This document shows, piece by piece, positions 13,828 to 40,184 of a stretch of 41,979 nt of DNA. The stretch is from Cognatishimia sp. WU-CL00825 (GTDB lineage: Bacteria > Pseudomonadota > Alphaproteobacteria > Rhodobacterales > Rhodobacteraceae). Within the stretch, counting starts at the first letter, position 1. Every line of letters begins with the position of its first letter. The notes under the pieces are model-generated. The model had not been told where the DNA came from, did no database searches, and saw only the letters and a list, made by a program, of their open reading frames with translations. The position numbers and the translations under genes were made by a program. Where the stretch lies: assembly GCF_040364665.1 (NCBI RefSeq), contig NZ_BAABWX010000011.1, forward strand, positions 1-41,979. Direction: 5' to 3'.

Positions 13828-14022
13828 CTAAGGCTCTGCCCGTGCAGCTGCGAGTGCTTGGCTCAAGACATTCATGTCGCCCACATGATTGGCCAAGAGC
13901 AGGATCAATCGCGAATTCAGCGCCTGACTCTCATCCTCTGACAGGCCCGCATGGGCGTTGATCAGATCTTCATAGAATTGATCTGCATCCGCAATGTTGG
14001 CTTTGGTGTTCAATTCACCCAT
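13828..14022 (-). CDS. DUF2783 small protein
   Basis: A 64-residue acidic protein (ADADQFYEDLINAHAGLSED ... SRLILLLANHVGD). I recognise the DUF2783 pattern FYE.LI.AH.GLS..ES..LN.RL.LLLANH. It has no catalytic motif. It follows the FAD hydroxylase by 3 bp and so is almost certainly co-translated with it, which suggests a partner or small subunit of the hydroxylase. Function unknown. Confidence 0.85.
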   Translation of the reverse strand: MGELNTKANIADADQFYEDLINAHAGLSEDESQALNSRLILLLANHVGDMNVLSQALAAARAEP

Positions 14023-14025
14023 GAC

Positions 14026-15645
14026 TTATTCCTTTCCGCAAGCTGTTTTCAGGGCCTGGGCAACGCTGTCTGCGTCAAAAGCAGGCCAGCGTGCGGCAAC
14101 ATGTTGGTCCGGACGGATCAGATAAACCGCGCTCTCTTCGGTGCCCAGATAGCGCGCGCGCAGCAATTCGTGCGCCGCGTTGGACAGGTCCAAGGAGACC
14201 CCCTTTATCGCGATACCATCAACTTCCTGCATGTCGGGCACATCTTGGTTCAGACCCAACAGAACAAATTGGTCGCCCAAATGGTCCAGCAGAAAGCCAG
14301 AGCCGACCGGCGCATCTGGGCAGGGGCTGCCAACGCGGGTTCTGTCTGGGCCGGCCAAGTCATCGGCAGCGTTCAAAGACAGGCCATCATAGGTACAGGG
14401 CATCGACAGTCGGCCCGAATTCACCAGTGGTCTTGCAAATTCATAATCGCTGGAGAGGTCAAGGATGGCGTTGCGGAATTGATAGCTGACCTTGGATTTT
14501 GGCGAAATGAAATCCGTAGAGCGCGTGGAGTTGCGGATGTTTTCCTCGGCGCCGTACACGCGTTCTTCCGAATAGCTGTCGATCAGGGTTTCTGGCGCGG
14601 TTCCGTTGACCACCATGCCAAGTTTCCAACCGAGGTTGTCCACGTCCTGCATGCCGGAGTTGGCCCCCCTTGCCCCAAAGGGAGAGACCTGATGCGCGCT
14701 GTCACCGGCAAAGATCACCCGACCGTGGCGGAAGCTCTCCATGCGTTTGCATTGGAAGGTATAGATCGAAGACCAGACCATGTCATATTCGACATCATCG
14801 CCTAACATCGCATCCAAACGTTTGCGTATGTTCGCTTCTTTCATTTCCTCCTTGCGGTCCGCGTCCCAGCCGATTTGAAAATCGATACGCCAGACATCAT
14901 CGGGCTGTTTGTGCAGCAATGCTGACGCGCCTGATTTGAAATGCGGTTCAAACCAGAACCAGCGTTCTGTTGGATATTCGGCCTTCATGCGAATGTCGGC
15001 GATCAGGAAACTATCCTGGAACACCCGGCCATCAAATTCTAGGCCCATCATGCTGCGCAGAGGCGAACTGGCCCCGTCACAGCCAATCAACCAATCGGCC
15101 TCTAGCTGATATTCACCTTCTGGGGTTAAGACCGTCAGACCGACATGATCGTCCAGCGGGTCCACAGATTCGACGCGGTTTTTGCCGCGAATTTCGATGG
15201 GCGCGCCTTTTGCGATTTCGGCTTGGATCTGTTCAAACAGAAACCGTTCGAAATAGGGCTGTTGCAGGTTAATAAACGCCGGGTTCTTGTGGCCTTCCTC
15301 GGGCAAGAGGTTGAACTCAAAAACCTGGCGATCATCGTGAAAGACTTTGCCGATGTTCCAGACAACGCCTTTGTCGACCATCGCGTCGCCACAGCCAAAG
15401 CGATCTGCGATTTCAAGCGTGCGTTTGGCAAAACAAATCGCCCGGCTGCCCATGCCGATGCCTTCGTGGTCATCCAGCACAACCACCGGCACGCCCTGAC
15501 GGCCAAGGTCTAGAGCAATGCCCAGCCCGATGGGACCACCTCCCATAACGACAACGGGGTGGCGAACGGGGATCGATTGATCTTGGTCAGCTGACCGTTC
15601 ATAGGGGTACAGCTTGAACGCAAGCGGATAGCGATCCTGAAACAT
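14026..15645 (-). CDS. FAD-dependent aromatic hydroxylase (class A flavoprotein monooxygenase)
   Basis: A 539-residue enzyme of the phenol/PHBH hydroxylase family. It has the Rossmann motif GGGPIGLG (35-42), the DG motif IGCDGASSPLR (about 187-197), and the second FAD motif GDSAHQVSPFGARG (314-327). The start at 15645 has a GGGAGG site; the open frame upstream runs into the next gene. It lies in an operon with hmgA and fah, and no 4-hydroxyphenylpyruvate dioxygenase is present on the plasmid. I therefore infer that it makes homogentisate from a hydroxyphenylacetate (3- or 4-hydroxy isomer). The substrate is not proven by sequence. Gentisate- or MhpA-like substrates are alternatives. Confidence 0.85.
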   Translation of the reverse strand: MFQDRYPLAFKLYPYERSADQDQSIPVRHPVVVMGGGPIGLGIALDLGRQGVPVVVLDDHEGIGMGSRAICFAKRTLEIADRFGCGDAMVDKGVVWNIGKVFHDDRQVFEFNLLPEEGHKNPAFINLQQPYFERFLFEQIQAEIAKGAPIEIRGKNRVESVDPLDDHVGLTVLTPEGEYQLEADWLIGCDGASSPLRSMMGLEFDGRVFQDSFLIADIRMKAEYPTERWFWFEPHFKSGASALLHKQPDDVWRIDFQIGWDADRKEEMKEANIRKRLDAMLGDDVEYDMVWSSIYTFQCKRMESFRHGRVIFAGDSAHQVSPFGARGANSGMQDVDNLGWKLGMVVNGTAPETLIDSYSEERVYGAEENIRNSTRSTDFISPKSKVSYQFRNAILDLSSDYEFARPLVNSGRLSMPCTYDGLSLNAADDLAGPDRTRVGSPCPDAPVGSGFLLDHLGDQFVLLGLNQDVPDMQEVDGIAIKGVSLDLSNAAHELLRARYLGTEESAVYLIRPDQHVAARWPAFDADSVAQALKTACGKE

Positions 15646-15671
15646 GGCAAATCCTCCCTTGTCAGTTACGA

Positions 15672-16622
15672 TTAGTTTTGCAGAGCATTCCACATGTCTT
15701 TGTCGCGCGCGGCGGTCCAAACACGCGGGGTATCGATGCCACGGGCTTCGTCATAGGCGCGTGCCACATTGAACGGCAGGCAATGTTCGTAGATCGCATA
15801 GTCTTTGAACTTGTCGTCACATGAGGCGCGCACTGCGTCCCAGGCTTCTTTTAAGCTGCCGCCGCGCGCGACCACACGTGCCACGGGTTTGTAGGTCGAG
15901 GACACAAAGTCTTCGGTTGCGGCCAAAGCCTTGGCCACCATCTCTTCGCCCACCAGCGCATCGCCGCGACCGGGTGCTATAGATTTGGGTTCAAAGGCTG
16001 CGATATTGGCCAATGTGTCTGCCCAATCGCCAAAGTGGCCATCGCCACAATAGCAGGCCGAGTGGTATTCCACGATGTCACCGGTGAACATCACCTCTTG
16101 GTCCGGCACCCAGACGACCGCATCCCCGGCTGTATGCGCACGGCCCAGATGCATGATGTCCACGCGGCGATTGCCAAGATAAACCGTCATTGCATCGCTG
16201 AATGTGGTTGTCGGATAGGTCAGACCGGGAATTTCTTCGTGGCCCTGAAACAGGCGCGGGAAACGGTCAAATTCAGAGTCCCAATCTTCCTGGCCTCGTT
16301 CAGCCACCATGGACCGGGCGGTGTCAGACATAATGATTTCACGTGCGCCATAGGCCGAGGCCCCCAAAACCCGCACCGCATGATAATGCGTCAGCACCAC
16401 ATGGCTGATCGGTTTGTCGGTGACAGAGCGGACACATTCGATGACCTTGCGGGCCAACCGCGGGGTGGCTTGGGCTTCGACAATCATCACGCTGTCGTCG
16501 CCGATGATCACACCGGTATTTGGATCGCCTTCAGCGGTGAAGGCATAAAGCCCCTCGCCAACTTTGGTGAAGCTGATTTTTTTATCTTCCATATCGCCAG
16601 CAGAGGCAAAGGCCTTAGACAT
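15672..16622 (-). CDS. MBL-fold hydrolase-like protein with altered metal site
   Basis: A 316-residue metallo-beta-lactamase-fold protein. The first motif, normally HxHxDH, reads H79-Y-H81-A-V83-R84, so the Asp and the third His are replaced. H163 (HLGRAHTAGD) and D182 (FTGDIV) of the later motifs are kept. The fold is clear but metal binding must differ from the standard two-metal site. It sits between fah and the FAD hydroxylase on the same strand with an AAGGAGAG site. Its job in this pathway is unknown; a lactone or thioester step is possible. Confidence 0.85.
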   Translation of the reverse strand: MSKAFASAGDMEDKKISFTKVGEGLYAFTAEGDPNTGVIIGDDSVMIVEAQATPRLARKVIECVRSVTDKPISHVVLTHYHAVRVLGASAYGAREIIMSDTARSMVAERGQEDWDSEFDRFPRLFQGHEEIPGLTYPTTTFSDAMTVYLGNRRVDIMHLGRAHTAGDAVVWVPDQEVMFTGDIVEYHSACYCGDGHFGDWADTLANIAAFEPKSIAPGRGDALVGEEMVAKALAATEDFVSSTYKPVARVVARGGSLKEAWDAVRASCDDKFKDYAIYEHCLPFNVARAYDEARGIDTPRVWTAARDKDMWNALQN

Positions 16623-16705: not shown

Positions 16706-17962
16706 TTATTTTGCCCAGTCAGGCACTGCGGGCGCGGGCAGGATTGTACCCTTGCAAGCGCCAAAGCCGACGCGATACCCGTCTCCTTTGGCTGCACCGC
16801 GCAACGTCAGCGTATCGCCATCTTCGAGAAACGAGCGGGTTTCGCCGGTTGCAAGTGTCATGGGTTCTTTGCCCCCCCAACTGAGTTCCAGCATCGATCC
16901 GCGATTTTCTTTTTGTGGTCCTGAAATTGTGCCAGACCCCAACAAATCTCCGACCCGCATGGTGCAGCCAGATGTGGTGTGGTGGCACAATTGTTGCGCT
17001 GCCGAATAATACATCTCGTTGTAGTTGGTGCGTGCGATAACGCTTTCGTTCTGACCTTCGGGGGACAGGCCAACTTCGAGATCGATATTATAAAGCATCG
17101 GCCCTGGTTCGCTGAGGTATGCCAGCTGTGGGCGCTCGCGCTCTGGTGTCGCGGTACGAAAAGGCTCAAGCGCCGCTTTTGTCACGATCCATGGGCTGAT
17201 CGAAGTTGCAGTGGCTTTCGCCTGAAACGGGCCTAGAGGTTGATATTCCCACGCTTGGATGTCGCGTGCAGACCAGTCGTTCAGCAACACATAGCCAAAG
17301 ATCATGTCGTCTGCTTGCTGCACCGAAACCATGCCCTCAGAGGGCTGCCCAACAATCGCCCCCATTTCCAGTTCGAGGTCAAACCGGGCACAGGGCGCAA
17401 AGCGTGGATGTTCGTCGTTCGGGCCTTTGAGCTGGCCATTGGGGCGCACCACATCTGTGCCAGACACCACAACCGAAGAGGCGCGGCCATTGTAGCCAAT
17501 TGGAATTGAAAGCCAATTTGGCGGCAATGCATTTGCCGGGTCGCGGAACATCGATCCTACGTTGATTGCGTGGTTTTTGCCGGCATAAAAGTCGGTATAT
17601 TCCGCAACGGTGATTGGCATATGCAGGGTTGCATCCGCCTGTGCCACCAAATGCGCGGCCAATGCGGCTTGTTGGTCCGCGCCTTCGGTCAACGCGGCCT
17701 GCAGATCAGCGCGCAGCGTCTTCCAAACGTCGGGCCCTGCGGCCATCACGTCATTCCAGACACCGTTTTGCAGCAACGGACCGCCGTCCAGCTGCAATAG
17801 GCCCGCGGTTTCCAACGCCGTCACATCCAGAATTTGGTCGCCGATAGCAACACCGCAACGGGCGGTGCCATCGGTAGAGAACACGCCATATGGCAGATTG
17901 TTCAAAGGGAAGTCGGTCTCGGAGGTGTTCGCGCTCTGGACCCAGCTTTTGAGCAGTGTCAT
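16706..17962 (-). CDS. fahA: Fumarylacetoacetase
   Basis: A 418-residue hydrolase that splits fumarylacetoacetate into fumarate and acetoacetate, the last step of homogentisate breakdown. Metal and catalytic motifs of the family are visible: YTDFYAGKNHAINVGSMF (Asp and catalytic His), FDLELEMG (two Glu ligands) and LLNDWSARDIQAWEY (Asp). Full family length. It starts 9 bp after the hmgA stop with an AAGGAAC site. Confidence 0.95.
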   Translation of the reverse strand: MTLLKSWVQSANTSETDFPLNNLPYGVFSTDGTARCGVAIGDQILDVTALETAGLLQLDGGPLLQNGVWNDVMAAGPDVWKTLRADLQAALTEGADQQAALAAHLVAQADATLHMPITVAEYTDFYAGKNHAINVGSMFRDPANALPPNWLSIPIGYNGRASSVVVSGTDVVRPNGQLKGPNDEHPRFAPCARFDLELEMGAIVGQPSEGMVSVQQADDMIFGYVLLNDWSARDIQAWEYQPLGPFQAKATATSISPWIVTKAALEPFRTATPERERPQLAYLSEPGPMLYNIDLEVGLSPEGQNESVIARTNYNEMYYSAAQQLCHHTTSGCTMRVGDLLGSGTISGPQKENRGSMLELSWGGKEPMTLATGETRSFLEDGDTLTLRGAAKGDGYRVGFGACKGTILPAPAVPDWAK

Positions 17963-17971
17963 CTCAGTTCC

Positions 17972-19333
17972 TTATCTTTTCCAATTGCCTTCAGGCGTTC
18001 CATCAAAATTCTTTTCAAGGCTGTCCCAGCAAGCGATGTAGTCATCTTGCAGCGGGGCCTCTTTGGCGGCGAATTCGGTCAGATGCTGCGGGAAACGCGT
18101 CTCAAACATAAAGGACATCGTCTTATCCAGCTTTTCTGGGCCGAGGTTGCTGTGGGTGGCCTTGTCAAAGGCTTGCTGATCCGGCCCATGCGGCAGCATC
18201 ATATTGTGCAAGCTGATCCCACCTGGGGCAAACCCATCTGGCTTTGCATCATATTCACCATAAATATTGCCCATCAGTTCGGACATGACGTTTTTGTGGT
18301 ACCAAGGCGGACGGAAGGTGTCTTCCATGGTCATCCAGCGTTCGCGGAACAGCACAAAGTCAATATTCGCGGTGCCCGGCACACCAGATGGGGCGGTCAG
18401 CACAGTAAAGATCGAGGGATCAGGGTGGTCAAACAGGATCGCGCCAACTGGGCAATAATCGCTCAGGTCGTATTTGCAGGGCGCATAATTGCCATGCCAG
18501 GCGACAACATCCAGAGGCGAATGGTCAATGAAGGTCTCATGGAACTGACCCTGCCATTTGATCACCACGCGCGAGTGCGCGTCACGGTCTTCAAAAGCGG
18601 CCACTGGGGTTTTAAAATCCCGGCGGTTGGCCATGCAATTGGCCCCGATGGGTCCGCGCCCTGGAAGCTCTAGCTTCTGACCATAGTTTTCACACACAAA
18701 ACCGCGCGCTGGTTTGCCGTCTGGCAGTTCAACCCGATACACCAATCCACGGGGAAGAATGGCTATCTCTTTGGGGGCAATGTCAATCACACCCAATTCG
18801 GTACAAAAGCGCAGATGGCCTTCTTGCGGCACCACCAGCAGCTCGGAATCTGCGGAAAAGAAATATTCATCCTGCATGTTTTCGGTCACAAGATAGACAT
18901 GCGTTGCCATACCAACCTGTGTGTAGACATCACCTGCGGTAGTCACCGTTTTCATCCCGGTGATCCAGGTCAGTTTTTCACCGCTATGGGGAATGGGATC
19001 CCAGCGATATTGGCCCAGTGACACCACATCTTCCAGCACATGCGGCGCAGATTTCCAATATGGATTTTCAATCTTGTTAAAGCGCCCGACATGTTTCACT
19101 GAAGGACGAATGCGATAGCACCAGGTGCGCTCATTTTGATGGCTTGGCGCTGTAAACGCGGTGCCTGTGAGCTGTTCACCATACAGACCATAGGCACATT
19201 TTTGCGGGCTGTTCATGCCCTTGGGCAGTGCCCCCGGCAGAGCCTCGGTTTCAAAGTCATTGCCAAAACCCGGCATATATCCTGGGGTAATACCCATGGT
19301 GTTCTCAGAGCTGGTCAATCCAGTGTCAGTCAT
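17972..19333 (-). CDS. hmgA: Homogentisate 1,2-dioxygenase
   Basis: A 453-residue non-haem Fe(II) ring-cleaving dioxygenase that makes maleylacetoacetate. It has [19 protein letters not shown] near the N-terminus, [12 protein letters not shown] in the middle, and the iron-binding stretches [14 protein letters not shown] (His and Glu) and LPHGPD (His). I chose ATG 19333 because AGAGGAAA precedes it; the frame runs on upstream without a good start. First gene of an operon of five. Its promoter holds a MarR-like box between the -35 and -10 elements (19395-19422). Confidence 0.95.
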
Positions 19334-19394
19334 GATTTTCCTCTTGTACCATCGCAGGCGTTGTCCAAACGACTCGGCCATTATCTTGCCTCTG

Positions 19395-19585: not shown

Positions 19586-20203
19586 ATGACGATTTTATAT
19601 GACTACTGGCGGTCCTCAGCGAGCTACCGCGTCAGAATTGCGCTGGGGCTTGCAGATATGGAATGGCAGACACAGATCGTGGATCTTTTGGCGGCGGAAC
19701 ACCAAGGCGCGGCCCATATGAAACGTAATCCACAGGGTCTGGTACCTGCCCTGGAAATTGATGGCATCCTGCTGACGCAATCTGTTGCGATCATCGAATA
19801 TCTGGATGAAACCCGGAACTTGGGATTGTTGCCAGAGGATCCAAAAGCAAGGGCACAGGTGCGGGCGCTGGCTTTTGCCATCGCGATGGAAATCCACCCG
19901 ATCTGCAATCTGAGCGTCGCCAAATACGCCGTGCAACAGTCGCAACAGGCCATCGAAAACAAGCAGTGGATGCAGCATTTCATCACCAAGGGGCTTATGG
20001 CCTATGAAAACATGCTGTCTGATGGGGTTTATTCATATGGCGACTGCGTGAGCCTGGCTGATGTTTGCTTGATGCCCCAGATGTATAACGCCAAGCGATG
20101 GGACGTTGATCTGAGCCAAATGCCAAAAATGAGCGCGATTGCGGCGCGGCTCGAAAGCCTCCCCGCCTTTGCCAAGGCTCATCCCGATCAGACACCGCAC
20201 TGA
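19586..20203 (+). CDS. maiA: Maleylacetoacetate isomerase
   Basis: A 205-residue zeta-class glutathione-S-transferase-like isomerase that turns maleylacetoacetate into fumarylacetoacetate with glutathione. The N-terminal signature YWRSSASYRVRIAL carries the SSxxxR glutathione-activating motif; NPQGLVPALEIDG and LTQSVAIIEYLDE follow, as in MaiA. AAAGGA precedes the ATG. It is divergent from hmgA, so the 252-bp gap may control both sides of the pathway. Confidence 0.95.
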   Translation: MTILYDYWRSSASYRVRIALGLADMEWQTQIVDLLAAEHQGAAHMKRNPQGLVPALEIDGILLTQSVAIIEYLDETRNLGLLPEDPKARAQVRALAFAIAMEIHPICNLSVAKYAVQQSQQAIENKQWMQHFITKGLMAYENMLSDGVYSYGDCVSLADVCLMPQMYNAKRWDVDLSQMPKMSAIAARLESLPAFAKAHPDQTPH

Positions 20204-20266: not shown

Positions 20267-20965
20267 TTAGCCCAGATAGGCCCTTTCCAGAATGCCGCGA
20301 TCCTGCTTTAGGTCCGTGGGCGTGCCCGAATAGGTCAGCTTGCCCTGCGTGATCACATGCGCTCGATCCGCTACATCCAGAGCCAGATGGGTGAATTGCT
20401 CGATCAGTAAAATCCCCATGCCTTTGTCGCGCAGGCTGCGCACGACGCCCACCAGTCTTTCGATAATGACCGGTGCCAGACCCAAAGACATTTCATCTAG
20501 CAGCATCACCTTTGGGCGCGATACCAGAGCCTGGGCAATCGCCACCATTTGTTGTTGCCCGCCTGATAACGAACCAGCGGCCAGATGGGCTTTTTCACGC
20601 AATTCCGGAAAGATCTCAAAGGCCGCCTGCACAGAGTGTTCCAGCGCGTCATCCGCTAATGTCGGGCCAGCGGCGCGTAGATTATCCAGCACCGACAGCC
20701 CACCCAACGTATGGTGCCCTTCGGGAATTGCGGCAATGCCATGCGCCCGGACATTCTGTGGGCTACTTGTGGCGACTTCGGTGCCATCAATCAGCACGTT
20801 GCCCGTCAGAGGCATCACCCCGGCAATGCCCAGAACCAGCTCTGATTTTCCGGCCCCGTTTGGCCCCAGAAGCGCGACGATCTCGCCCTCTGCAACATTC
20901 AGCGACACGCCGTCGACCACGCGACGGGTGCTGCCTTGCACAGTGACATCCTTGATTTCCAGCAT
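20267..20965 (-). CDS. livF: ABC transporter ATPase, branched-chain amino acid type (LivF-like)
   Basis: A 232-residue ATPase with Walker A GPNGAGKS, signature LSGGQQQ, and Walker B VMLLDEMSLGLAP. All ATPase motifs look intact. Last gene of a five-gene importer that also contains a LivG-like ATPase, two permeases and a binding protein. Such LivFGHM-HmgA-neighbour systems often carry aromatic acids or amides rather than amino acids; the cargo here is inferred from the neighbouring nitrilase and homogentisate genes. Confidence 0.9.
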   Translation of the reverse strand: MLEIKDVTVQGSTRRVVDGVSLNVAEGEIVALLGPNGAGKSELVLGIAGVMPLTGNVLIDGTEVATSSPQNVRAHGIAAIPEGHHTLGGLSVLDNLRAAGPTLADDALEHSVQAAFEIFPELREKAHLAAGSLSGGQQQMVAIAQALVSRPKVMLLDEMSLGLAPVIIERLVGVVRSLRDKGMGILLIEQFTHLALDVADRAHVITQGKLTYSGTPTDLKQDRGILERAYLG

Positions 20966-20974
20966 GTTCTCTCC

Positions 20975-22643: not shown

Positions 22644-22647
22644 CAGA

Positions 22648-23523: not shown

Positions 23524-23553
23524 AAGACGTTCCTTTCGGGCCTTTCGAATTTT

Positions 23554-23583: not shown

Positions 23584-23593
23584 TCAGGGGAGG

Positions 23594-25583: not shown

Positions 25584-25663
25584 TTGTTCCTCCGGTATCT
25601 GATGAACAGAGCGGGCCGGCCCCAAACCTTACGATCTGGGACCAGACCCATAAATTGGCCCGA

Positions 25664-31020: not shown

Positions 31021-31055
31021 CTTGCCGGACAGAAATCTTGCGCTTCGCGGACAAA
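31021..31055. promoter_or_regulatory. Direct repeats, candidate AraC-B site
   Basis: CTTGCCGGACAGA (31021-31033) and CTTCGCGGACAAA (31043-31055) match at 10 of 13 positions and start 22 bp apart, as expected for AraC-family tandem sites. They end where the missing -35 of the nitrilase B promoter would begin. An overlapping inverted pair TGTCC/GGACA is at 31017-31031. Confidence 0.45.
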
Positions 31056-31082
31056 CGTAGCCACCAACCCAAGGAGACCGTC

Positions 31083-32071: not shown

Positions 32072-35000
32072 TCAGAGATCCAACTCGATCATCCCGTTCG
32101 CGTCAGCCGCTCTGGATTGGCAGGTGATAATTGCCGTTTCCTGCTGGCTTTTTGACAGCACATAGTCGCGGTGCTCGACATCTCCGGACAGCAAACCGCA
32201 TTTGCAGACACCGCAAATACCGTCTGAACATTTGATATCAACCGGCACGCCGTTTTCCACCAAAATGTCCGCCGCCGATTTATCCGCAGGAACATCCAGC
32301 ACCTTGCCAGATCTCACCAGTTTGATTTGAAAGGCATGGTTTTCATAGTCTGGGGCTTCCGGCACTGAAAAATACTCTAGGTGGCGGTTGTCTTCGGGAA
32401 AACCGCCCTGCTCTGCCGTGTCCATGATGGCTTGCATATAAGGCTCTGCACCGCAGGTGTAGACATGCGCGCCGTCTGAATATTTCAGAATATCCGCCAG
32501 ATCAGCCCGCGTGCCTTCCGACGAAATATGCAGTTTAACTTTATCAGCCCAAGCAACGCTTGCCAGATCCTCCAAGAACCCCATCGTGGCGCGGGCACGG
32601 CCCGAATAGTGCAGCTCAAAGTCACCGCCGATGGCGTGCAACCGATGCGCCATCGCAATCATCGGGGTGATGCCAATACCGCCGCCCATCAGATAGGATT
32701 TGGACCCGTCTTCATGCAAAGGAAAATGGTTGATGGGTTTGGACACAAAAATCTTGCGCCCCTCGCTAAAGATCCGGTGCAACAGGGCTGATCCCCCCCT
32801 GCCTGCTTCTTCGCGCAACACGCCAATTTCATATCGGGTCCGGTCTGCCGGATCGCCGCACATCGAATATTGCCGCAAAAATTCCGGGGCCACAACAATG
32901 TCCAAATGCGCGCCAGCGGTCCATTCCGGCAACGCAGCCCCATCCTGACTTTGCATCACATATTTAGTGACACCATCGGCCATTTTTTCGGCTTTGGTGA
33001 TTTTGACCTGCAGCACTGGGCTGTCCGTAAAGTCAGGCCGTTTATGCGCCCCACTGTCGTCGCCATTGGCGAGGCGTTGTTTATATTCACCCGCAGTGAT
33101 CATGGCCTGATAGGCTTCGATCCCCGCTTCCCGATCCATCGGATGAGGGTATGCATAGGGATGCGGGGCCAAATTGGCCGGATAGACCGCCAGGGTCTGA
33201 TCCTCGTATTGCAAATCCAGATCTTTTTGCAATGTGCGCGCATTGACCGGATGTTCCGTGGGGCGATAGCCGCCGTCTTCCTGAATCTCTAAATCCCACC
33301 ACCATTTTTTGGTGGTGTTCAGCGAACCGCGATCCAGCATGTCATCGAGTTTTGCCAAGGCCGGTGCCGCGGCCGGCAGTTTCATGGCGGCCCAACGAAA
33401 CGCGCTGTCAGCCAAAATACCCTCGAGATTCCACGGACAGGTTTTCATACAGCGCCCACACATCGCCCCACCCGGCGTAGTGATGCGATAGGTGGTGCAT
33501 TTCTGGCTGTCAGATTTCCAAATCTCATAGCCATTGAACATCAGCTTGGGGCCCGCAGTGATTGCCCCAGACGGACATTCCCGCGCACATTTCTTGCAAG
33601 CCTCGCAGAACTTTTGCAAACCAAAGTCAATCGGCTTGTCATGGGTCATCGGCAAGTCAGTGGTCACAACGCCCGATTTCAATCGCGGCCCCAAATAGGG
33701 GTTCAATATGACCTCCCCGATCCGGCTGACCTCTCCCAATCCCGACAGCAACAACAGCGGCGGTTGCAAGACTTCGCCGTCCATCACCGTGTGCGCCTTG
33801 GCTTTATACCCCAAATTGCGCAGCTGGCGGGCAATCACACCGCCCAACAATGAAAACCGCAAATAGGCCCGCATCGACATGGCGACTGCAATCCAGTCAT
33901 CCCCCGACGAGCCTTCCATCGTGTCATAGCCCTGATCAACAATCATGCTGATGGCCTGATCATGTGGCGGCTCAATTGGTTGGCCTGCGGCGTCATGGGA
34001 ATACCAAGTCCAATCCGGACAACGGGATATGCCCACCGCATCAATCCCAAGATAATAGCTGGTGGCTTTGACCAGATCATGCGCCTCTTGCGGGTCAAGC
34101 TTGCGCGGGTCCTGCGCGGGATCGCCGTCTTGCAAAAGCGTAAACGCACCAAGCGCTCGACGCTGCGCCATTGATGGGGCCGATTTGCGCACATAATGCC
34201 CGCCCTTTGCCCCGTCTTGCACATGTTTGCCCATGTCACCAAACAGGGCGCGGCTGAACATGTCCGTGCGCTTTGGCACCCGAGGCACGCGCGCTTCGTC
34301 GATATAGGTGGTGGGATTATTTACCCGCTTCAAATTCTCAAACGGATGTGCCCCATCTTTGAAATCGCGTTTTGCAAACACCGGATCTTGCCGTGCCGCA
34401 ATCTCGGCAAGCGGCAGGTCAGTCGCGCAGGCGAAATTTGTGGTCACCACTGCCAGGCTGAACCCGTCGCCAACAAAAGGCGCCACAAGTTGGCCACCTT
34501 GCACCTTGGCCACGCCAGAAGCCACCGCCAAACGACCCAGATCCACATCGGTTGATGACATGGTATGTGCCCGGGCCTCATGCCCCAGCAAGCGCAGATA
34601 ATTGGCAATCACAACCGCAGTTTCTGCCGCCAAAATCGCTGACCGATGCGCATCGGCATCTTTGATCCATGCCGTCCCTGCCTCGTTGGTCTTAGGCGCG
34701 CGTGGATGTGCATAGAGGAACACCAAAGCATGGGTGTGCCCGTTGATCGAGGTCGGCGTGGCTTCCATCGATTCCTTCAAATCAGCCATGATCAAATCAA
34801 TGCCCGACGCAAAGGTCTTGGTTTGTTTGGTGCGCAGACTTTCCGCCAGCCGGTCGATATCCGGATTGCGCACAGGTCGCGCCAGCACCGCAGGTTCAGG
34901 CAGCTGACAGGCACCAACGATCGTGGCATCTGCAAAATAGCCAAAGGCCTTTAGGTGCTCTGCCCTTTCCGTCAGGTCGGCTGGCGCATCCGCCACAGCA

Positions 35001-35215
35001 TTGTTGATCAACCCGTCGCGTATGGCATCCAACATCGCCTGATGATCACCCATGGCGTTCACAATCGATTCTGGTTGATTGGGTCGACTGAATGTCAGCG
35101 GCTCAAACGCTGGCACTTCGGCAAAATCGATCTTGCTGGTGCGCTTTAAAGTTTCAAGTTTCAAACGCCCCAAATGCACAGGCCGGTTCTTGGCAGATCG
35201 TAATGCAATACCCAT
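32072..35215 (-). CDS. Self-sufficient catabolic reductive dehalogenase (RdhA core fused to PDR-type reductase)
   Basis: A 1,047-residue cobalamin-dependent reductive dehalogenase in one chain with its electron supply. Residues about 380-600 are the RdhA core: GLGEVSRIGE and VVTTDLPM (492-523), then two [4Fe-4S] sets, C537/C540/C543/C547 and C573/C586/C589/C593. From about 730 a phthalate-dioxygenase-reductase-like module follows: RQYSMCGDP (flavin), GGGIGITPM (nucleotide) and plant-type [2Fe-2S] C996/C1001/C1004/C1032. No twin-arginine signal, so it is cytoplasmic, like the catabolic BhbA of Comamonas (bromoxynil-acid dehalogenase) and unlike respiratory RdhA. Residues about 160-270 look like a decayed copy of the core. 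Start chosen at 35215 (AAAGGAAAG), 12 bp after the TRAP gene. Confidence 0.88.
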   Translation of the reverse strand: MGIALRSAKNRPVHLGRLKLETLKRTSKIDFAEVPAFEPLTFSRPNQPESIVNAMGDHQAMLDAIRDGLINNAVADAPADLTERAEHLKAFGYFADATIVGACQLPEPAVLARPVRNPDIDRLAESLRTKQTKTFASGIDLIMADLKESMEATPTSINGHTHALVFLYAHPRAPKTNEAGTAWIKDADAHRSAILAAETAVVIANYLRLLGHEARAHTMSSTDVDLGRLAVASGVAKVQGGQLVAPFVGDGFSLAVVTTNFACATDLPLAEIAARQDPVFAKRDFKDGAHPFENLKRVNNPTTYIDEARVPRVPKRTDMFSRALFGDMGKHVQDGAKGGHYVRKSAPSMAQRRALGAFTLLQDGDPAQDPRKLDPQEAHDLVKATSYYLGIDAVGISRCPDWTWYSHDAAGQPIEPPHDQAISMIVDQGYDTMEGSSGDDWIAVAMSMRAYLRFSLLGGVIARQLRNLGYKAKAHTVMDGEVLQPPLLLLSGLGEVSRIGEVILNPYLGPRLKSGVVTTDLPMTHDKPIDFGLQKFCEACKKCARECPSGAITAGPKLMFNGYEIWKSDSQKCTTYRITTPGGAMCGRCMKTCPWNLEGILADSAFRWAAMKLPAAAPALAKLDDMLDRGSLNTTKKWWWDLEIQEDGGYRPTEHPVNARTLQKDLDLQYEDQTLAVYPANLAPHPYAYPHPMDREAGIEAYQAMITAGEYKQRLANGDDSGAHKRPDFTDSPVLQVKITKAEKMADGVTKYVMQSQDGAALPEWTAGAHLDIVVAPEFLRQYSMCGDPADRTRYEIGVLREEAGRGGSALLHRIFSEGRKIFVSKPINHFPLHEDGSKSYLMGGGIGITPMIAMAHRLHAIGGDFELHYSGRARATMGFLEDLASVAWADKVKLHISSEGTRADLADILKYSDGAHVYTCGAEPYMQAIMDTAEQGGFPEDNRHLEYFSVPEAPDYENHAFQIKLVRSGKVLDVPADKSAADILVENGVPVDIKCSDGICGVCKCGLLSGDVEHRDYVLSKSQQETAIITCQSRAADANGMIELDL

Positions 35216-35226: not shown

Positions 35227-36534
35227 TTAATTTCCAAACATCGAGTTTGGCAGATAGAGCGCCACTGACGGGAAGATCAGCAGTATGATCAAAGTCAGGA
35301 ACATGGCAATCCAGAACGGCCAAATCCCACGAAAGATCGTGTTGATGGGCACTTCTGGGGCAATACCTTTGACAATGAAAACATTCATGCCCACCGGCGG
35401 CGAGATCAATCCCATTTCCAACGCTATCACTGCAAGAACCCCAAACAAGACCATATCCACCCCCAAGGGTTCCAGGATCGGCTGCACCAAGGGAATGGTC
35501 AGCACCAGCATGGCAAACCCATCCAGAAACATGCCCAAAACGATGAACAGCAAAAGAAATGCGATCACCACTTGGGTGCCGTTTAAACCCAATTCAGCGA
35601 CCCAGGAGGACAGCGCATAGGTCACGCCGGTAAAGCCCACAAAGGTTTTAAACACAAAGGCTCCGAACAGGATCAAATAGACCGTGCCCGTGGCCCGCAG
35701 CGTTTGACCAAAAACATTCGCAATGTTCGCGCGGGTCATTTTCCGGCGGTATAGAGTCACAAGAAATGCCAGAAACGCCCCAAATCCAGCTGCCTCGGTG
35801 GCCGAAAAAACACCGGCATAAATACCGCCAATGGTCAGAAAAATGATGCCCAAAATGGTGCTGGATTTCCACAGCGCTTTCCATTTTTCAGCCAATGACA
35901 CCTCCGCGCCGGCCATCGGCGCCTTTGAACGATCCAATGTCACCGTGATCCAGATTGCAGCGATAAACAGCAAGGTCAGCAAAAGCCCCGGCAAAACACC
36001 TGCCAAAAACAGGCGGCCAATGCTTTCTTCGGTCAAAATCGCATAGACCACAAAGCCAGCAGATGGCGGGATCAAAATACCCAAAGTGCCGCCCGCCGCG
36101 ATGGCCCCGGTTGCCAAACCGTCGTGGTATTGAAAGCGTTTCATTTCTGGCAAGGACACGCGGCCCATGGTCATGGCAGAGGCCAAAGAAGACCCTGATA
36201 AGGCGGAAAAGCCTGCACAGCCCACGACCGCAGCAGAGGCAAGACCGCCGCGAAACCGCCCAAGCCAGGCATAGGCGGCGCCATAGATTTCGCGGCTCAT
36301 ACCCGACACCCCAGCCAGATTGCCCATCAGCACAAAAAGCGGAATGATCGTCAGCGGATAAGACGTTGCCTCGGAAAAAATCTCTCCGGCCAATTTTGGC
36401 AAGGCAGCATTTGCACGGATCAAATAGATGCCCACAGTGCCCACCAGCATCATGGCCAGACCCACAGGCATGCGCAGATACAGCAAGATCAAAAGCGATG
36501 CGAACCCAATGATCGCCAGCGTCGTAAGGTCCAT
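35227..36534 (-). CDS. dctM: TRAP transporter large permease (DctM)
   Basis: A 435-residue inner-membrane protein with about 12 helices (LILLYLRMPVGLAMMLVGTV, YPLTIIPLFVLMGNLAGVSG, GMFLDGFAMLVLTIPLVQPI, GLISPPVGMNVFIVKG). It is the ion-coupled channel of a TRAP importer. Start overlaps the dctQ stop by one base (TAATG). The dehalogenase gene follows after 11 bp, so import and dehalogenation are co-transcribed. The cargo is therefore likely a halogenated aromatic acid. Confidence 0.93.
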   Translation of the reverse strand: MDLTTLAIIGFASLLILLYLRMPVGLAMMLVGTVGIYLIRANAALPKLAGEIFSEATSYPLTIIPLFVLMGNLAGVSGMSREIYGAAYAWLGRFRGGLASAAVVGCAGFSALSGSSLASAMTMGRVSLPEMKRFQYHDGLATGAIAAGGTLGILIPPSAGFVVYAILTEESIGRLFLAGVLPGLLLTLLFIAAIWITVTLDRSKAPMAGAEVSLAEKWKALWKSSTILGIIFLTIGGIYAGVFSATEAAGFGAFLAFLVTLYRRKMTRANIANVFGQTLRATGTVYLILFGAFVFKTFVGFTGVTYALSSWVAELGLNGTQVVIAFLLLFIVLGMFLDGFAMLVLTIPLVQPILEPLGVDMVLFGVLAVIALEMGLISPPVGMNVFIVKGIAPEVPINTIFRGIWPFWIAMFLTLIILLIFPSVALYLPNSMFGN

Positions 36535-37043
36535 TAGCCCGTCCCCTTGGTCTGCAATCCTTCGATCAGCCGAAGGACATAAAAAATCGCCATCAACCCG
36601 CAGGCCACAGCAAGAATGTAATAAAATGGGGTGTGCACGATCCCTAGGTTCACCGTGATGGCACCGCAGTCAAATCCACAACCGCCCTTTTTGATCAACG
36701 CGCGCACCGCCAGTGCCAAGATGCCCGCACAGAGGGCGTGCACGACAACATCGGTGGCGCGCAAAAAACGCTGAGGCAGATGGCGTTCGATCAATTCGAT
36801 GGTGACGTGGGCTCCGTAAAGCCCCCCATAGAAAATGGCGCAGGCCACAACCACCGCAGCAGCAAGAACTTGCAAATCCTCGACGCCAAACAGCGCATCA
36901 TTCAGCACATAGCGCCAGAACACGCTGACAACGGTCAGGATCATCATAAAGAAGATGCCCAGGCTGCCGATGACACATGCGATTGTCCCAAGGGTGCGCA
37001 TCAACGCTGACAGCGGCAGCTTTTCCAATGTGTGGCCTGCCAT
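36534..37043 (-). CDS. dctQ: TRAP transporter small permease (DctQ)
   Basis: A 169-residue membrane protein with four predicted helices (MRTLGTIACVIGSLGIFFMM; VFWRYVLNDALFGVEDL; AVVVACAIFYGGLYGAHVTI; YYILAVACGLMAIFYVLRLI). The W-R-Y-V-L-N motif is typical of DctQ. Between dctP (4 bp gap) and dctM (1-base overlap). Confidence 0.9.
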   Translation of the reverse strand: MAGHTLEKLPLSALMRTLGTIACVIGSLGIFFMMILTVVSVFWRYVLNDALFGVEDLQVLAAAVVVACAIFYGGLYGAHVTIELIERHLPQRFLRATDVVVHALCAGILALAVRALIKKGGCGFDCGAITVNLGIVHTPFYYILAVACGLMAIFYVLRLIEGLQTKGTG

Positions 37044-37047
37044 CGGA

Positions 37048-38031
37048 TCAGTTCCCAGTCAAAAGCGAGATAACATCGCCAACCGTGGAGTCGCCGGATT
37101 TGTCTGACGCAATGTCGGCCATGACCTGATCAACCACAGTATCAATTCGGCTGCGTTCCGCGTCAGACAGGGTGATGACTTCTAGGCCCTGTGCTTTGGC
37201 GTGGGCAAGCGCCTTGCCACCAATCGCTGCATAGGTTTTTGCTGCCTGTTCCGACAAGCCAGACTCGGCCACGCGATCAATCGCCGCCCGTCCCGCATCG
37301 TTCAGCCCGTCATAAACATCTTGGTTCATCACAACCGCAAACGTCGCTGGGCCGCCGGGGAACCATGTGGTGACATATTCACCAGGCTCATCAAGCTTGA
37401 ACGACAGAATGCCCGATGGGTCAATCATCACCCCATCGACAATGCCATTTGCCAGGCTTTGGTTAATCTCGGTAACTGGAATGGCCACAGTCGAGGCCCC
37501 TAGGGCCTCTAGAAATGGAATGGCGGTCGGATCAGACACGCGAATTTTCATACCTTTCACGTCATCCATACTGCGCACCGGCTTGCCCTTGGTGATCAAA
37601 ACCGGCGGAGAGTTGGTCCAAAACCCCACGACTTTTCCACGAAACTCCGCCTCCAGCTCGCTCCGAGCTGACCGCAATGCTTCGGTGCAATCAACCGCTG
37701 TCTCGCAAAGGTTTGGCAGCCCAATCACCGAGGTTTTTGGGAACAAGCGATGCGAAAAGCTGGGCAGCATAAAGACAATATCAGCCACGCCATCCAGCAT
37801 GATAGAATATTGGTTCGGAGGGCTGGCATTCAGCGCGCCACCCGGAAAATGCTGTACCTTAACCTCGCCCCCGGTTTCCGCCTCTATCATTTCGCCCAAG
37901 GGCGTCAGAAAGGCTTTGTTCATCGGGTGATTTGGGCCCATGAAATAGGCCAGTGACAGGGTTTCAGCCTGCGCAATTGGCGCTGTAACGACGGCAGCGG
38001 CAATGGCTGCGTATTTCACTAAATTTTTCAT
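37048..38031 (-). CDS. dctP: TRAP transporter solute-binding protein (DctP)
   Basis: A 327-residue periplasmic binding protein with a signal peptide cleaved probably after AQA (MKNLVKYAAIAAAVVTAPIA). The ligand-clamping arginine is likely in GMKIRVSDPTAIPFLEALG, as in DctP proteins. I chose ATG 38031 because GGAG is 7 bp before it; ATG 38037 is too close to that site. First gene of the dctP-dctQ-dctM-rdh operon and divergent from a MarR regulator. Confidence 0.93.
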   Translation of the reverse strand: MKNLVKYAAIAAAVVTAPIAQAETLSLAYFMGPNHPMNKAFLTPLGEMIEAETGGEVKVQHFPGGALNASPPNQYSIMLDGVADIVFMLPSFSHRLFPKTSVIGLPNLCETAVDCTEALRSARSELEAEFRGKVVGFWTNSPPVLITKGKPVRSMDDVKGMKIRVSDPTAIPFLEALGASTVAIPVTEINQSLANGIVDGVMIDPSGILSFKLDEPGEYVTTWFPGGPATFAVVMNQDVYDGLNDAGRAAIDRVAESGLSEQAAKTYAAIGGKALAHAKAQGLEVITLSDAERSRIDTVVDQVMADIASDKSGDSTVGDVISLLTGN

Positions 38032-38085
38032 CTGCATACTCCAACTGTTGGTGTCTTGGGGAGAGTGACCGGGTTTTCTCGGCTC

Positions 38086-38132: not shown

Positions 38133-38138
38133 GAAATT

Positions 38139-38260: not shown

Positions 38261-38725
38261 ATGACACATACCGACATCCAGGAAGAATATGATCTTCACA
38301 GCCGGCTGGGCTTTCGCCTGAGTCGCATTTCCAACCTGATGAAAGCGCGTCTTGATAAAAGATTAGAGGCGCACGGACTGTCTCGACTGTCCTGGTGCGC
38401 CCTTTCGGGCATCGGATTGCAAGACATCACAACCCCAAGTGGCCTAGCCGATCACATCGGTATCACACGCCAGGCGATCTCGCGGTTGCTGTTACAAATG
38501 CGCAAAGACGGCTGGATCGAACAAAGCTTTGATCAAAGCGACGGACGGTCGCGCCGCCTGACATTGACAAAACAGGGCTATGAAACTCTAGAAATCTGCC
38601 GCCCCGTGGTCGAAGAAAACCAAACGCATTTTGCGTCCAAAATCTCGCCACAGGAATTGGCCGCACTGGATGCGGCTCTGAATGCCCTCTTGCAAGGTGA
38701 ATCCACCCAACTGGATGATGTCTGA
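38261..38725 (+). CDS. MarR-family transcriptional regulator
   Basis: A 154-residue winged-helix repressor. The recognition part is TPSGLADHIGITRQAISRLL and the wing DGRSRRLTLTKQG. Proteins of this family bind palindromes of about 16-20 bp as dimers and release them on binding an aromatic acid. It is divergent from the TRAP-dehalogenase operon. I infer that it binds the shared boxes at 19399-19448, 30976-30991 and 38086-38158. The ribosome-binding site is weak (GGAA). Confidence 0.9.
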   Translation: MTHTDIQEEYDLHSRLGFRLSRISNLMKARLDKRLEAHGLSRLSWCALSGIGLQDITTPSGLADHIGITRQAISRLLLQMRKDGWIEQSFDQSDGRSRRLTLTKQGYETLEICRPVVEENQTHFASKISPQELAALDAALNALLQGESTQLDDV

Positions 38726-38772
38726 CCCCACGGGTCAAAGCTTATCCCTCCACATAATGCCCAAAATTCAGC

Positions 38773-38793
38773 TGCGTTTTATCGCTAAACGCA
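38773..38793. promoter_or_regulatory. Hairpin between marR and the amidase
   Basis: TGCGTTT (38773-38779) and AAACGCA (38787-38793) are perfect arms with a 7-base loop in the 94-bp gap. It may be a partial terminator that lowers amidase expression relative to marR; there is no T-run. Confidence 0.35.
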
Positions 38794-38819
38794 CCGGCAT
38801 TTGTTCACAAAGGACTGCC

Positions 38820-40184
38820 ATGCCAACCTCTGATGATCGCCCTGCCCCCAACTTTCGTCCGATGACGCTCGCCCAAGCGCGCCAAATACGCGACACCCAA
38901 GGCGCACAAGCGCTGCAGGACTTGAGCCTAATGCGCCTGAAAACAGACAAAAACCATGTGGTGATCGCCCACAGCGACAGCCCTGCCCCAACTCTGGACG
39001 GGCCACTAGCTGGCATCCCTTTTGGCATCAAAGACAACATCGATTGCCTGCCCTTTGCGACAACTGGCGGATCGCCAGCGCTGCGTGACAACAAACCGAC
39101 CAAAGACGCATCCGTGGTGGCCCTGCTAAAAACCGCCGGGGCAAATCCAATTGGCAAACTCAACCTGCATGAACTGGCGTTTGGCGTCACCAATAACAAC
39201 GGGTTTTTCGGGGCCGTCTCCACTCCCTTTGATGCGCGCCGGGTTGCTGGTGGCTCGTCCGGTGGCAGTGCAGCTGCGGTGGCACAGGGCCTTGTTCCCT
39301 TTGCATTGGGGTCCGACACGGGTGGTTCGACGCGCATCCCTGCGGCCTTCTGTGGCATCGCGGGGTTTCGCCCAACAACAGGCAGATATCCCGCCGCCGG
39401 TGTGCTGTCACTTAGTCCGACGCGTGACACCATTGGCCCAATGGCCTACTGCGTTGCGGACTTGCTGGAAATCGACGCGATCATAGCCCCCCACGACGGT
39501 GCGACGCCCGCAATTCACCGGCCCCTACGCGTTGGCCTGATTTATCAAAATGCGGGTCTGTCTGCTGCATTAGACCAACATTTCACCCAAGCCATCAACG
39601 GGTTAGAAATGGCGGGCCTGATCGAATGCGTCCCAATCACAACCTCAGAATTTGATGAACTTGAACCACGTATGGGTCAGGCCATCGTTGGCCACGAAGC
39701 CCATGCGTTTTGGACCCGATTTTGCGATGAGACCCTTGGCATATCCTATGCCGAGTTTGCCCAAGCCCTGGGCACCCCGACCGTGCAACAGATCTTTACG
39801 GCTTTGCCCAGCCGACTGGCCGCAAGTTCAGCGGCCTACCCGGCAGAAATCCACGCCCAATTGGCGCGGCTGCGCCAAACCTATGCCGCCGTTTTTGCCG
39901 ACAATCGCCTTGACCTGATCGCCATGCCAACGGTGTCCGTGCCGCCGCCCCATATTGGCGACGAAGAAATGATGCCCACAGACCGTGGCGACCAGCCGAC
40001 CTTCCCTACCATCGTCAAAAATACCTCCTTGGCCAGTCTGGTCGGCTCGCCTTCGCTGTCACTGCCTGCGGGCACCGACGCGCATGGCTTGCCCGTTGGT
40101 ATCATGATCGAGGCGCTGCCAGGGTCAGATCGCTTTGTTCTGGCCGCCGGCGCGTTGCTGGAGAGCCAGTTGCAGTCGCAATAA
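38820..40184 (+). CDS. Amidase (amidase-signature family)
   Basis: A 454-residue amide hydrolase with the Ser-cisSer-Lys triad: K71 (FGIKDNID), S146 (GGSSGGSAAA) and S170 (GSDTGGSTRIP). Start at 38820 has AAAGGA; the frame is open upstream into the marR gene. Next to marR and the dehalogenase operon and on a plasmid with two nitrilases, it probably hydrolyses an amide form of the same substrate (nitrilases sometimes release amide, and brominated phenylacetamides occur in nature). Indole-acetamide or mandelamide hydrolases are close in type; the substrate is inferred. Confidence 0.9.
   Translation: MPTSDDRPAPNFRPMTLAQARQIRDTQGAQALQDLSLMRLKTDKNHVVIAHSDSPAPTLDGPLAGIPFGIKDNIDCLPFATTGGSPALRDNKPTKDASVVALLKTAGANPIGKLNLHELAFGVTNNNGFFGAVSTPFDARRVAGGSSGGSAAAVAQGLVPFALGSDTGGSTRIPAAFCGIAGFRPTTGRYPAAGVLSLSPTRDTIGPMAYCVADLLEIDAIIAPHDGATPAIHRPLRVGLIYQNAGLSAALDQHFTQAINGLEMAGLIECVPITTSEFDELEPRMGQAIVGHEAHAFWTRFCDETLGISYAEFAQALGTPTVQQIFTALPSRLAASSAAYPAEIHAQLARLRQTYAAVFADNRLDLIAMPTVSVPPPHIGDEEMMPTDRGDQPTFPTIVKNTSLASLVGSPSLSLPAGTDAHGLPVGIMIEALPGSDRFVLAAGALLESQLQSQ

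Follow-up and report, generated by a model that had tools for sequence, protein, structure and literature searches.

Gene content of the contig

Contig NZ_BAABWX010000011.1 of Cognatishimia sp. WU-CL00825 carries genes for nitrile hydrolysis, reductive dehalogenation, and homogentisate breakdown, and here we analyze these genes, their relatives, and the pathway that they may form. The stretch analyzed, 41,979 nucleotides long and called the window below, is one entire contig (C11 of 17) in a 3.62-Mb genome. It encodes RepA-, ParB-, and RepM-like proteins, and its labeling as a plasmid in an earlier note on this DNA is reasonable for a whole contig with such proteins. An exact terminal overlap of 15 to 200 bases was looked for on the contig and none was found, so a circle is not demonstrated.

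The catabolic genes listed in the earlier note, namely, two nitrilases, an amidase, a reductive dehalogenase (RDase) with a TRAP importer, a flavin adenine dinucleotide (FAD)-dependent hydroxylase, HmgA, MaiA, and FahA, were all found between positions 13828 and 40184. Beyond that list, we found a DUF2783 protein, an MBL-fold gene, two PPOX flavoproteins, two FeaR-like regulators, an aldehyde dehydrogenase (ALDH), and a five-gene Liv-type importer. The genes fall in two modules, which are adjacent in the window. M1 consists of marR, dctPQM-dehalogenase, feaR, and nitrilase B-PPOX; M2 consists of the hydroxylase block, fahA, hmgA, maiA, the Liv importer, PPOX-nitrilase A, and feaR.

The window was compared with fetched loci (L numbers) and with genomes of the family (G numbers, G000 being the host). 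The 80 RDase loci (L003 to L082) are the best 80 of 544 relatives in a set of genome contigs, with flanks of at most 10 kb on each side; both 10-kb flanks are complete in 44 of the 80, and with the other 36 lacking a full flank, neighbor counts are lower bounds. The family sample holds nearly one genome per genus, with 388 genomes searched for RDase and 394 for nitrilase A. Papers given by PMC number are cited for excerpts of their text.

A dehalogenase, a TRAP importer, and a nitrilase in module M1

The RDase of M1 has 1,047 residues from the ATG at 35215 (32072..35215, minus strand) and scores 190 bits against TIGR02486 (cutoff, 160). Its residues 734 to 1043 match phthalate dioxygenase reductase (2pia, 196 bits), which places it in the self-sufficient subgroup of catabolic dehalogenases. 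It is 49% identical to NpRdhA over 477 aligned columns, and the RdhA domain and iron-sulfur motifs are present. Two further RDases (P0122, P0123) are 85 to 88% identical to it. S422, Y426, K488, and R552 of NpRdhA, which are reported to serve in phenolic hydroxyl binding or proton donation (PMC7565698), correspond to S447, Y451, K513, and R577 and are kept in the window RDase and in 80/80 relatives. The hydrophobic pocket differs at four positions, with NpRdhA F290 replaced by M, F310 by Y, P311 by V, and A419 by V. We rejected pocket residues as a substrate predictor, as they do not set hmg-linked RDases apart from the other RDases, among them the MED193 enzyme that acts on 2,6-dibromophenol.

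The TRAP importer genes dctM-dctQ-dctP (35227..38037, minus strand; DctM, 308 bits, cutoff 268; DctP, NF037995, 105 bits, cutoff 50; DctQ by Pfam) lie 11 bp before the RDase gene, and the same dctMQP-RDase order is found in L015, L034, and L063 and on a Yoonia plasmid described below. Beyond them is a MarR-type regulator (38261..38725, plus strand); a MarR gene is also found near RDases or their TRAP genes in L003, L009, L015, and L043. On the other side of the RDase lie FeaR-like AraC regulator 2 (31038..32027, plus strand), nitrilase B (29927..30952, minus strand; PF00795, CN-hydrolase), and PPOX-type flavin mononucleotide (FMN) flavoprotein 2 (29271..29870, minus strand), with the regulator between nitrilase B and the dehalogenase and divergent from nitrilase B.

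M2 holds a second set of the last three genes. Nitrilase A (25664..26686, minus strand; PF00795, CN-hydrolase) likely starts at the ATG at 26686, its listed open reading frame (ORF) running past this to 26728. It is paired with PPOX-type FMN flavoprotein 1 (24918..25625, minus strand) and is divergent from FeaR-like AraC regulator 1 (26814..27764, plus strand). Within the window, the nitrilases are 54% identical, the PPOX proteins 38%, and the FeaR proteins 37%, and because the copies are only 37 to 54% identical, the nitrilase-PPOX-FeaR trio is an old duplication. The FeaR-like regulators score 165 and 161 bits, under the FeaR cutoff of 199. The best solved relative of both nitrilases is 6zby "NitA" (365 and 385 bits), which we take to be the arylacetonitrilase of Pseudomonas fluorescens EBC191. 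Compared with 6zby in an alignment judged by eye, nitrilase B keeps the Glu, Lys, and Cys that presumably form the catalytic residues of a nitrilase. Against the Nit6803 family (TIGR04048), the nitrilases score 230 and 240 bits, below the cutoff of 502.6.

FeaR-nitrilase-PPOX groups also occur in L107, L109, and L110, along with FeaR-nitrilase in L108 (at the contig end) and nitrilase-PPOX in L088. PPOX-type FMN flavoproteins accompany nitrilases in the window, in L107, L109, L110, and L088, and in L120 and L123 (the Yoonia plasmid), and in Novosphingobium pentaromativorans US6-1 the nitrilase and PPOX genes are likewise adjacent. A PPOX protein fused to reductase domains stands beside the marR-RDase genes of Epibacterium ulvae U95 (L003:7069-9228), and another is near the RDase of a Jannaschia plasmid (L122:25407-27038).

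A homogentisate block with an MhaAB-like hydroxylase in module M2

M2 encodes the full set of enzymes for homogentisate breakdown, all above curated cutoffs: FahA fumarylacetoacetase (16706..17962, minus strand; TIGR01266, 505 bits versus 375), HmgA homogentisate 1,2-dioxygenase (17972..19381, minus strand; TIGR01015, 625 versus 511), and MaiA maleylacetoacetate isomerase (19586..20203, plus strand; TIGR01262, 250 versus 171). Between maiA and the PPOX 1 gene is a Liv-type ABC importer with two ATPases, two permeases, and a binding protein (20267..24859, minus strand). On the other side of fahA lie the MBL-fold hydrolase (15672..16622, minus strand), a conserved member of such blocks, and the FAD-dependent aromatic hydroxylase (14026..15645, minus strand), 539 residues from the ATG at 15645, its listed ORF running to 15720. 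This hydroxylase belongs to the NCBIfam PRK08132 family (NF006002; 753 bits, cutoff 416). Three base pairs from its gene is that of the 64-residue DUF2783 protein (13828..14022, minus strand; PF10932, 96 bits).

The hydroxylase and its MhaB-like partner, beside fahA and hmgA, have the layout of MhaAB, a flavoprotein of 560 to 566 residues with a 60-residue coupling protein, encoded next to hmg genes, that converts 3-hydroxyphenylacetate (3-HPA) to homogentisate and is reported to be highly specific for 3-HPA (PMC3053370). Thus, by family membership (PRK08132 and DUF2783) and layout, the pair resembles MhaAB. The DUF2783 gene adjoins the hydroxylase gene in 10/10 RDase-linked blocks and also in L084 and L085. 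The same hmgA-fahA-MBL-hydroxylase-DUF2783 block is found on other roseobacter plasmids (L084, L085), with no RDase in the stretches fetched. The MBL-fold protein stands beside the hydroxylase in the blocks seen and is 76 to 87% conserved (87% in L084 and L085, 76 to 82% in other loci compared).

As the earlier note had stated, 4-hydroxyphenylpyruvate dioxygenase (HPPD) is lacking on the plasmid. The further step of that note, made subject to HPPD not being chromosomal, was that homogentisate must have a source other than tyrosine, and this did not hold: HPPD is encoded on another host contig (G000:C2, 369 bits, cutoff 277), and the plasmid hmgA is the sole hmgA found in the host genome (one match in each of 11 genomes searched). 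We therefore rejected the idea that homogentisate cannot come from tyrosine; it may also derive from tyrosine, and the plasmid hmg block probably carries the tyrosine route of the host too. In a relative of the same genus, G308, hmgA is on contig C1 and no RDase match was found.

Both modules recur on a Yoonia plasmid

Both modules are carried by a 335.7-kb plasmid of Yoonia sp. SS1-5 (NZ_CP151764.1; source, marine algae). Plasmid records matched by the RDase numbered 8 (E <= 1e-100), those matched by nitrilase B numbered 33 (E <= 1e-50), and those matched by hmgA numbered 156 (E <= 1e-100, a frequent plasmid gene), and NZ_CP151764.1 is in all three sets. Records were compared selectively, the listings covering 25 of the 33 nitrilase B records and 60 of the 156 hmgA records. 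A megablast search of positions 14000 to 38800 against plasmids gave 20 records, none covering 80%; the Yoonia plasmid was not among them, its DNA being too divergent.

On the Yoonia plasmid, M1 lies at 39.4 to 48.9 kb, with marR, dctPQM, RDase, FeaR-like, nitrilase, and PPOX genes in the order and relative orientation of the window (identities: marR, 50%; dctP, 57%; dctQ, 52%; dctM, 75%; RDase, 61 to 72%; FeaR 2, 46%; nitrilase B, 65 to 74%; PPOX 2, 79%). M2 lies at 91.7 to 105.7 kb, with DUF2783, hydroxylase, MBL, fahA, maiA, hmgA, livFGMHK, PPOX, nitrilase, and FeaR genes (identities: DUF2783, 55%; hydroxylase, 64 to 65%; MBL, 75 to 76%; fahA, 68%; maiA, 47%; hmgA, 80%; liv genes, collinear, 65 to 87%; PPOX 1, 63%; nitrilase A, 80%; FeaR 1, 63%). 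There, maiA is on the opposite side of hmgA and on the opposite strand, and a marR gene is placed between hmgA and the liv genes. Some of the Yoonia catabolic genes are missing from the PLSDB gene table. Each Yoonia nitrilase, PPOX, and FeaR copy is closest to the window copy of its own module (for the M2 nitrilase, 80% versus 52%), and the two modules are therefore orthologous, not parallel inventions.

A third lineage has part of M1. L044, a 6,909-bp contig of a Granulosicoccaceae metagenome-assembled genome, carries dctQ, dctM, RDase, FeaR (minus strand; 42%) in the same place between dehalogenase and nitrilase, and then the start of a nitrilase. Its right end encodes the first 57 aligned nitrilase residues (75% identical to B), and its left end encodes a nitrilase end (60% to B). 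These pieces at both edges (residues approximately 6 to 62 and 269 to 316) would suit either a circle or a stretch between two nitrilase copies. Our ORF filter (at least 90 residues, half-length match) drops nitrilase pieces at contig ends, and tblastn recovers those of L044. The linkage of nitrilase and dehalogenase proposed in the earlier note is thus seen as one conserved gene group in the window, the Yoonia plasmid, and L044. Nitrilase A likewise stands beside the homogentisate block on the Yoonia plasmid and in G063, with more distant nitrilases so placed in G148 and G277.

Proposed pathway

The genes, their order and homology, and the co-recurrence of the modules are observed. Because two genera carry both modules on plasmids, each module with its own nitrilase, and another lineage has at least part of M1, a joint two-module plasmid pathway at the level of arylacetates is the best explanation of the locus, and we consider it rather probable. 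The substrates, the directions, and the joint flow through the modules are predictions from sequence. M1 would import halogenated phenolic arylacetonitriles or their acids, and nitrilase B would hydrolyze the nitrile. The dehalogenase would then remove bromine or iodine ortho to the phenol hydroxyl, using NAD(P)H through its fused reductase. In M2, nitrilase A would hydrolyze further arylacetonitriles, and the MhaAB-like hydroxylase would turn hydroxyphenylacetate into homogentisate, which HmgA, MaiA, and FahA would convert to fumarate and acetoacetate.

The dehalogenase step draws on a studied homologue. JtRdhA debrominates 3-bromo-4-hydroxyphenylacetate (3-bromo-4-HPA) almost as fast as its best substrate (relative rate, 99.3%) and bromoxynil more slowly (13.6%), with no activity on the chlorinated compounds listed in the excerpt, and Escherichia coli W with JtRdhA grows on 3-bromo-4-HPA (PMC10463259). 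Because of these data and the linkage of related RDases to mha-hmg and hpa genes (below), the window dehalogenase plausibly takes halogenated hydroxyphenylacetates, by analogy. A dehalogenase restricted to benzoates would have told against the earlier note; the homologue is not so restricted. A natural candidate substrate is 2-(3-bromo-4-hydroxyphenyl)acetonitrile, known from sponges (PMC10971822).

The position of the ring hydroxyl is where the earlier note and the sequence data part. The chain of that note amounts to a special case of the joint pathway, in which a dihalo-4-hydroxyphenylacetonitrile or its amide yields the acid, then 4-HPA, and then homogentisate, the last step calling for hydroxylation at C1 with a shift of the side chain. 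The natural nitrile and the 3-bromo-4-HPA activity of JtRdhA suit such a chain, and 4-HPA 1-hydroxylation to homogentisate has been reported in Pseudomonas acidovorans and Azoarcus evansii (PMC3053370). Neither HpaD nor PobA was found in the host genome at the thresholds used, and HpaD was absent from 5/10 hmg-linked RDase genomes, two of which have a tyrosine-decarboxylase-like gene by the block. Opposed to it, the hydroxylase pair resembles MhaAB, reported as 3-HPA specific, and the other five hmg-linked genomes have HpaD, with the RDase behind hpaEDGH in three of them. The absence of HpaD is a mild hint at a 4-HPA route, and MhaAB specificity favors 3-HPA. With a host lacking HpaD and a 3-HPA-specific MhaAB, 4-HPA would have no evident outlet unless C1 is attacked with a shift of the side chain, a reaction for which we know of no gene. 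Most likely, the hydroxylase acts para to an existing hydroxyl, on 3-HPA and conceivably 2-HPA. If it is a true MhaAB, the sponge nitrile would stall at 4-HPA, and substrates yielding 3-HPA or 2-HPA would fit; if it takes 4-HPA with a side-chain shift, the chain of the earlier note would work. We regard that chain as unlikely.

A bolder form of the same idea, which we offer as speculation and hold to be slightly more doubtful still, is that 4-HPA is a substrate of the roseobacter MhaA/DUF2783 pair, which would add the hydroxyl at C1 and make the side chain migrate. If this were true, both plasmids would encode a complete route from the brominated tyrosine-derived nitriles of sponges or algae through debromination to homogentisate, and mha-hmg-RDase groups elsewhere would do the same for bromotyrosine via bromotyramine.

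Of the pathway in the earlier note, then, the gene set, the nitrilase-dehalogenase group, and the placing of nitrilase A by the hmg block were borne out. The step from 4-HPA to homogentisate was not supported, given the MhaAB-like hydroxylase and a host without HpaD, and the amide branch fared no better. The amidase (38682..40184, plus strand; Pfam Amidase, 299 bits) is outside the Yoonia gene groups, and the only counterpart seen in the 80 RDase loci is a partial match, 38% over 178 residues, in L041 (PPOX proteins, for their part, have matches in L003); one amidase search used a query starting at an arbitrary internal codon (38769). The ALDH behind nitrilase B and PPOX 2 (27814..29226, minus strand) exceeded the cutoff of no model among the 25 of 43 listed, phenylacetaldehyde dehydrogenase being one of the nearest. 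The Yoonia gene groups have neither an ALDH behind PPOX 2 nor an amidase behind marR. These two genes look like optional additions.

These additions bring up a different reading, in which the product is indole-3-acetic acid, formed by the nitrilases from indole-3-acetonitrile, by the amidase from the acetamide, and by the ALDH from the acetaldehyde, with the dehalogenase and hmg genes separate. The NCBIfam model nearest to the amidase is that of indoleacetamide hydrolase (415 bits, under the cutoff of 532), all three enzyme types yield an arylacetate, and the Yoonia host came from algae; in the Yoonia gene groups, however, the dehalogenase and hmg genes are again accompanied by nitrilases and not by the amidase or ALDH. 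We consider this reading very improbable.

Neighborhoods of related dehalogenases

In 10/80 RDase loci, the fetched flank (10 kb at most) includes an mha-hmg block (L008, L010, L011, L012, L014, L022, L025, L032, L035, and L065); in L025, the flank takes in the MBL and hydroxylase genes only. In L008, L010, L011, and L022, the RDase gene comes after the DUF2783 gene, both being on one strand. In L012, L032, and L065, it comes after hpaE-hpaD-hpaG-hpaH, again in the same direction, and mha-hmg is on the opposite strand; HpaE, HpaD, and HpaH of L065 exceed their cutoffs, and HpaG-C is below. A DOPA/tyrosine-decarboxylase homologue is found near the mha-hmg-RDase group in L008, L010, and L011 (the L011 copy at 390 and 346 bits), which suggests entry of halotyrosine via halotyramine. 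The window falls in a 36-row tree clade (SH-aLRT 96) in which 9 of the 35 other rows are hmg-linked. Random placement expects about 0.2 of 35, in a calculation that treats related rows as independent, and the label needs 8 changes over 81 rows.

RDase was found in 146/388 sampled family genomes. Eighty of the 146, with at most 100 contigs each (not all such genomes), were searched for hmgA, HpaD, and PobA and the other 66 for hmgA only, and distances from RDase to hmgA, HpaD, and PobA were read by hand. The hmgA gene is present in 128/146 (69/80 plus 59/66), and its distance from the RDase is 20 kb or less in 3/128: the host (12.7 kb), G294 (0.6 kb), and G378 (5.4 kb). In G372, with an RDase 84% identical, hmgA is at 32 kb. 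We therefore rejected a family-wide RDase-hmg linkage. HpaD was within 20 kb of the RDase in 0/34 genomes, and PobA was in 4/62 (G073, 0.2 kb; G197, 1.2 kb; G108, 11 kb; G169, 17 kb). In G073:C6 and G197:C7, the 4-hydroxybenzoate hydroxylase gene is directly beside the RDase, and these may be roseobacter counterparts of the BhbA route. MED193-type RDases (L017, L024, L030, L042, L047, L048, L054, L060, and L072) and also L004 have some or all of a set of 5-oxoprolinase-type genes (LamB/YcsF, carboxyltransferase subunits) adjacent.

Relatives of nitrilase A (E <= 1e-60) were found in 10/394 family genomes, the host included. A nitrilase is within 6 kb of hmgA in three of the nine others: G063 (72% identical to A, 1.1 kb, with an in-frame stop), G148 (44%, 5.7 kb), and G277 (44%, 3.9 kb). 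In the remaining six, the nitrilase is distant from hmgA or on another, sometimes short, contig. RDase occurs in 5/9 of these nitrilase genomes versus a background of 38%, which is not informative. No relative of nitrilase B or of the RDase was found in viral contigs.

Several of our results weigh against the joint pathway. Without the host genome, RDase-hmgA adjacency is 2/127, the chance level for the family. No nitrilase relative was found in 79/80 of the closest RDase loci (tblastn, E <= 1e-5; 44/80 with both 10-kb flanks). A gap of 43 kb separates the modules on the Yoonia plasmid, where the RDase, nitrilase B, hydroxylase, MBL, and livK genes match in two frames, from damage or sequencing error. 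The hydroxylase is an ordinary roseobacter type, 72 to 87% identical to 119 other proteins among the matches listed, and is therefore not special to dehalogenation. The bromoarylacetonitrile known from nature has its hydroxyl at position 4 and is thus unsuited to a 3-HPA hydroxylase. RDase substrates probably differ by lineage, some RDases lying by pobA, with the arylacetate link confined to the branch that holds the window RDase.

The modules could instead merely share plasmids, with the hmg genes serving the tyrosine route, the dehalogenase detoxifying bromophenols or bromobenzoates, and the nitrilases acting on unrelated nitriles. The chance-level adjacency agrees with this, as do the sole hmgA copy on the plasmid with HPPD elsewhere, the 156 plasmid records with hmgA, and FeaR-nitrilase-PPOX groups away from hmg in G302, G222, and G215. 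A related RDase, that of MED193 (L048), converts 2,6-dibromophenol to 2-bromophenol (PMC13101508). Coincidence does not readily account for the presence of M1 and M2, each with its nitrilase trio, on plasmids from separate genera, for the grouping of dehalogenase and nitrilase genes in three replicons, or for the seven loci where the dehalogenase gene follows mha or hpa genes. We judge mere sharing of plasmids unlikely, if the least unlikely of the alternatives, and retain the joint pathway.

To our knowledge, apart from the Comamonas herbicide pathway, no RDase of this type has an established natural substrate. In at least one lineage, the conserved RDase-nitrilase and mha-hmg/hpa links suggest as substrates hydroxyarylacetonitriles and hydroxyphenylacetates that carry bromine or iodine, and so marine compounds of the halotyrosine type, and they hint at a natural role for marine dehalogenases.

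Other genes of the contig

The remainder of the contig has partition and replication genes, a carnitine block, and a GNAT gene. The block (3102-13582) is of the carnitine/gamma-butyrobetaine type, with a BCCT transporter, a KCE-like enzyme, coenzyme A (CoA) enzymes, two GbdR-like regulators, and a carnitine 3-dehydrogenase (718 bits, cutoff 592). Relatives of the CoA genes of this block (caiD-like, 81%; acd, 83%) and of one of its regulators adjoin an RDase in L018.

Comparison with known systems

Among the open-access papers listed, we found none that connects a marine RDase with nitrilase or homogentisate genes, which is not proof of absence. The terms reductive dehalogenase, homogentisate, and homoprotocatechuate occur once each in PMC2842291, and the first two also in PMC7902726. 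Among the known blocks closest to M2 are those of Loktanella (L084) and Tropicibacter (L085), which have the same gene order and 68 to 88% identity in hydroxylase, MBL, FahA, and HmgA; unlike the window, neither has an RDase or nitrilase annotated in its fetched stretch. The MhaAB and HmgABC systems of Pseudomonas putida U and B. xenovorans LB400, likened here by description, also have an FAD hydroxylase with a partner of about 60 residues beside homogentisate genes; the RDase and nitrilases that accompany the window block go unmentioned in the excerpt describing them (PMC3053370). JtRdhA, from the roseobacter Jhaorihella thermophila, is similar by description, with RdhA fused to a reductase; the published work deals with the isolated enzyme. 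The Yoonia sp. SS1-5 plasmid has the same internal module order as the window, with the modules apart and the ALDH and amidase missing from their places.

Plasmid pBHB of Comamonas sp. 7D-2 (NC_021077; BhbA), the nearest known system, serves the complete breakdown of a halogenated aromatic nitrile, bromoxynil, under aerobic conditions. Like the window, it carries a nitrilase (42 to 44% identical) and a self-sufficient RDase (48%) on one plasmid, approximately 10.5 kb apart in pBHB, and follows the logic of nitrile to acid, dehalogenation, and ring cleavage. It works at the benzoate level with protocatechuate 4,5-dioxygenase, whereas the window pathway would handle arylacetates and leave through homogentisate, and the FeaR, PPOX, TRAP, and hmg genes have no match in the 31 kb of pBHB compared. 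The pathway logic is thus known from pBHB; what would be new is the proposed arylacetate level and homogentisate exit, together with the different regulators, PPOX partners, and importers.

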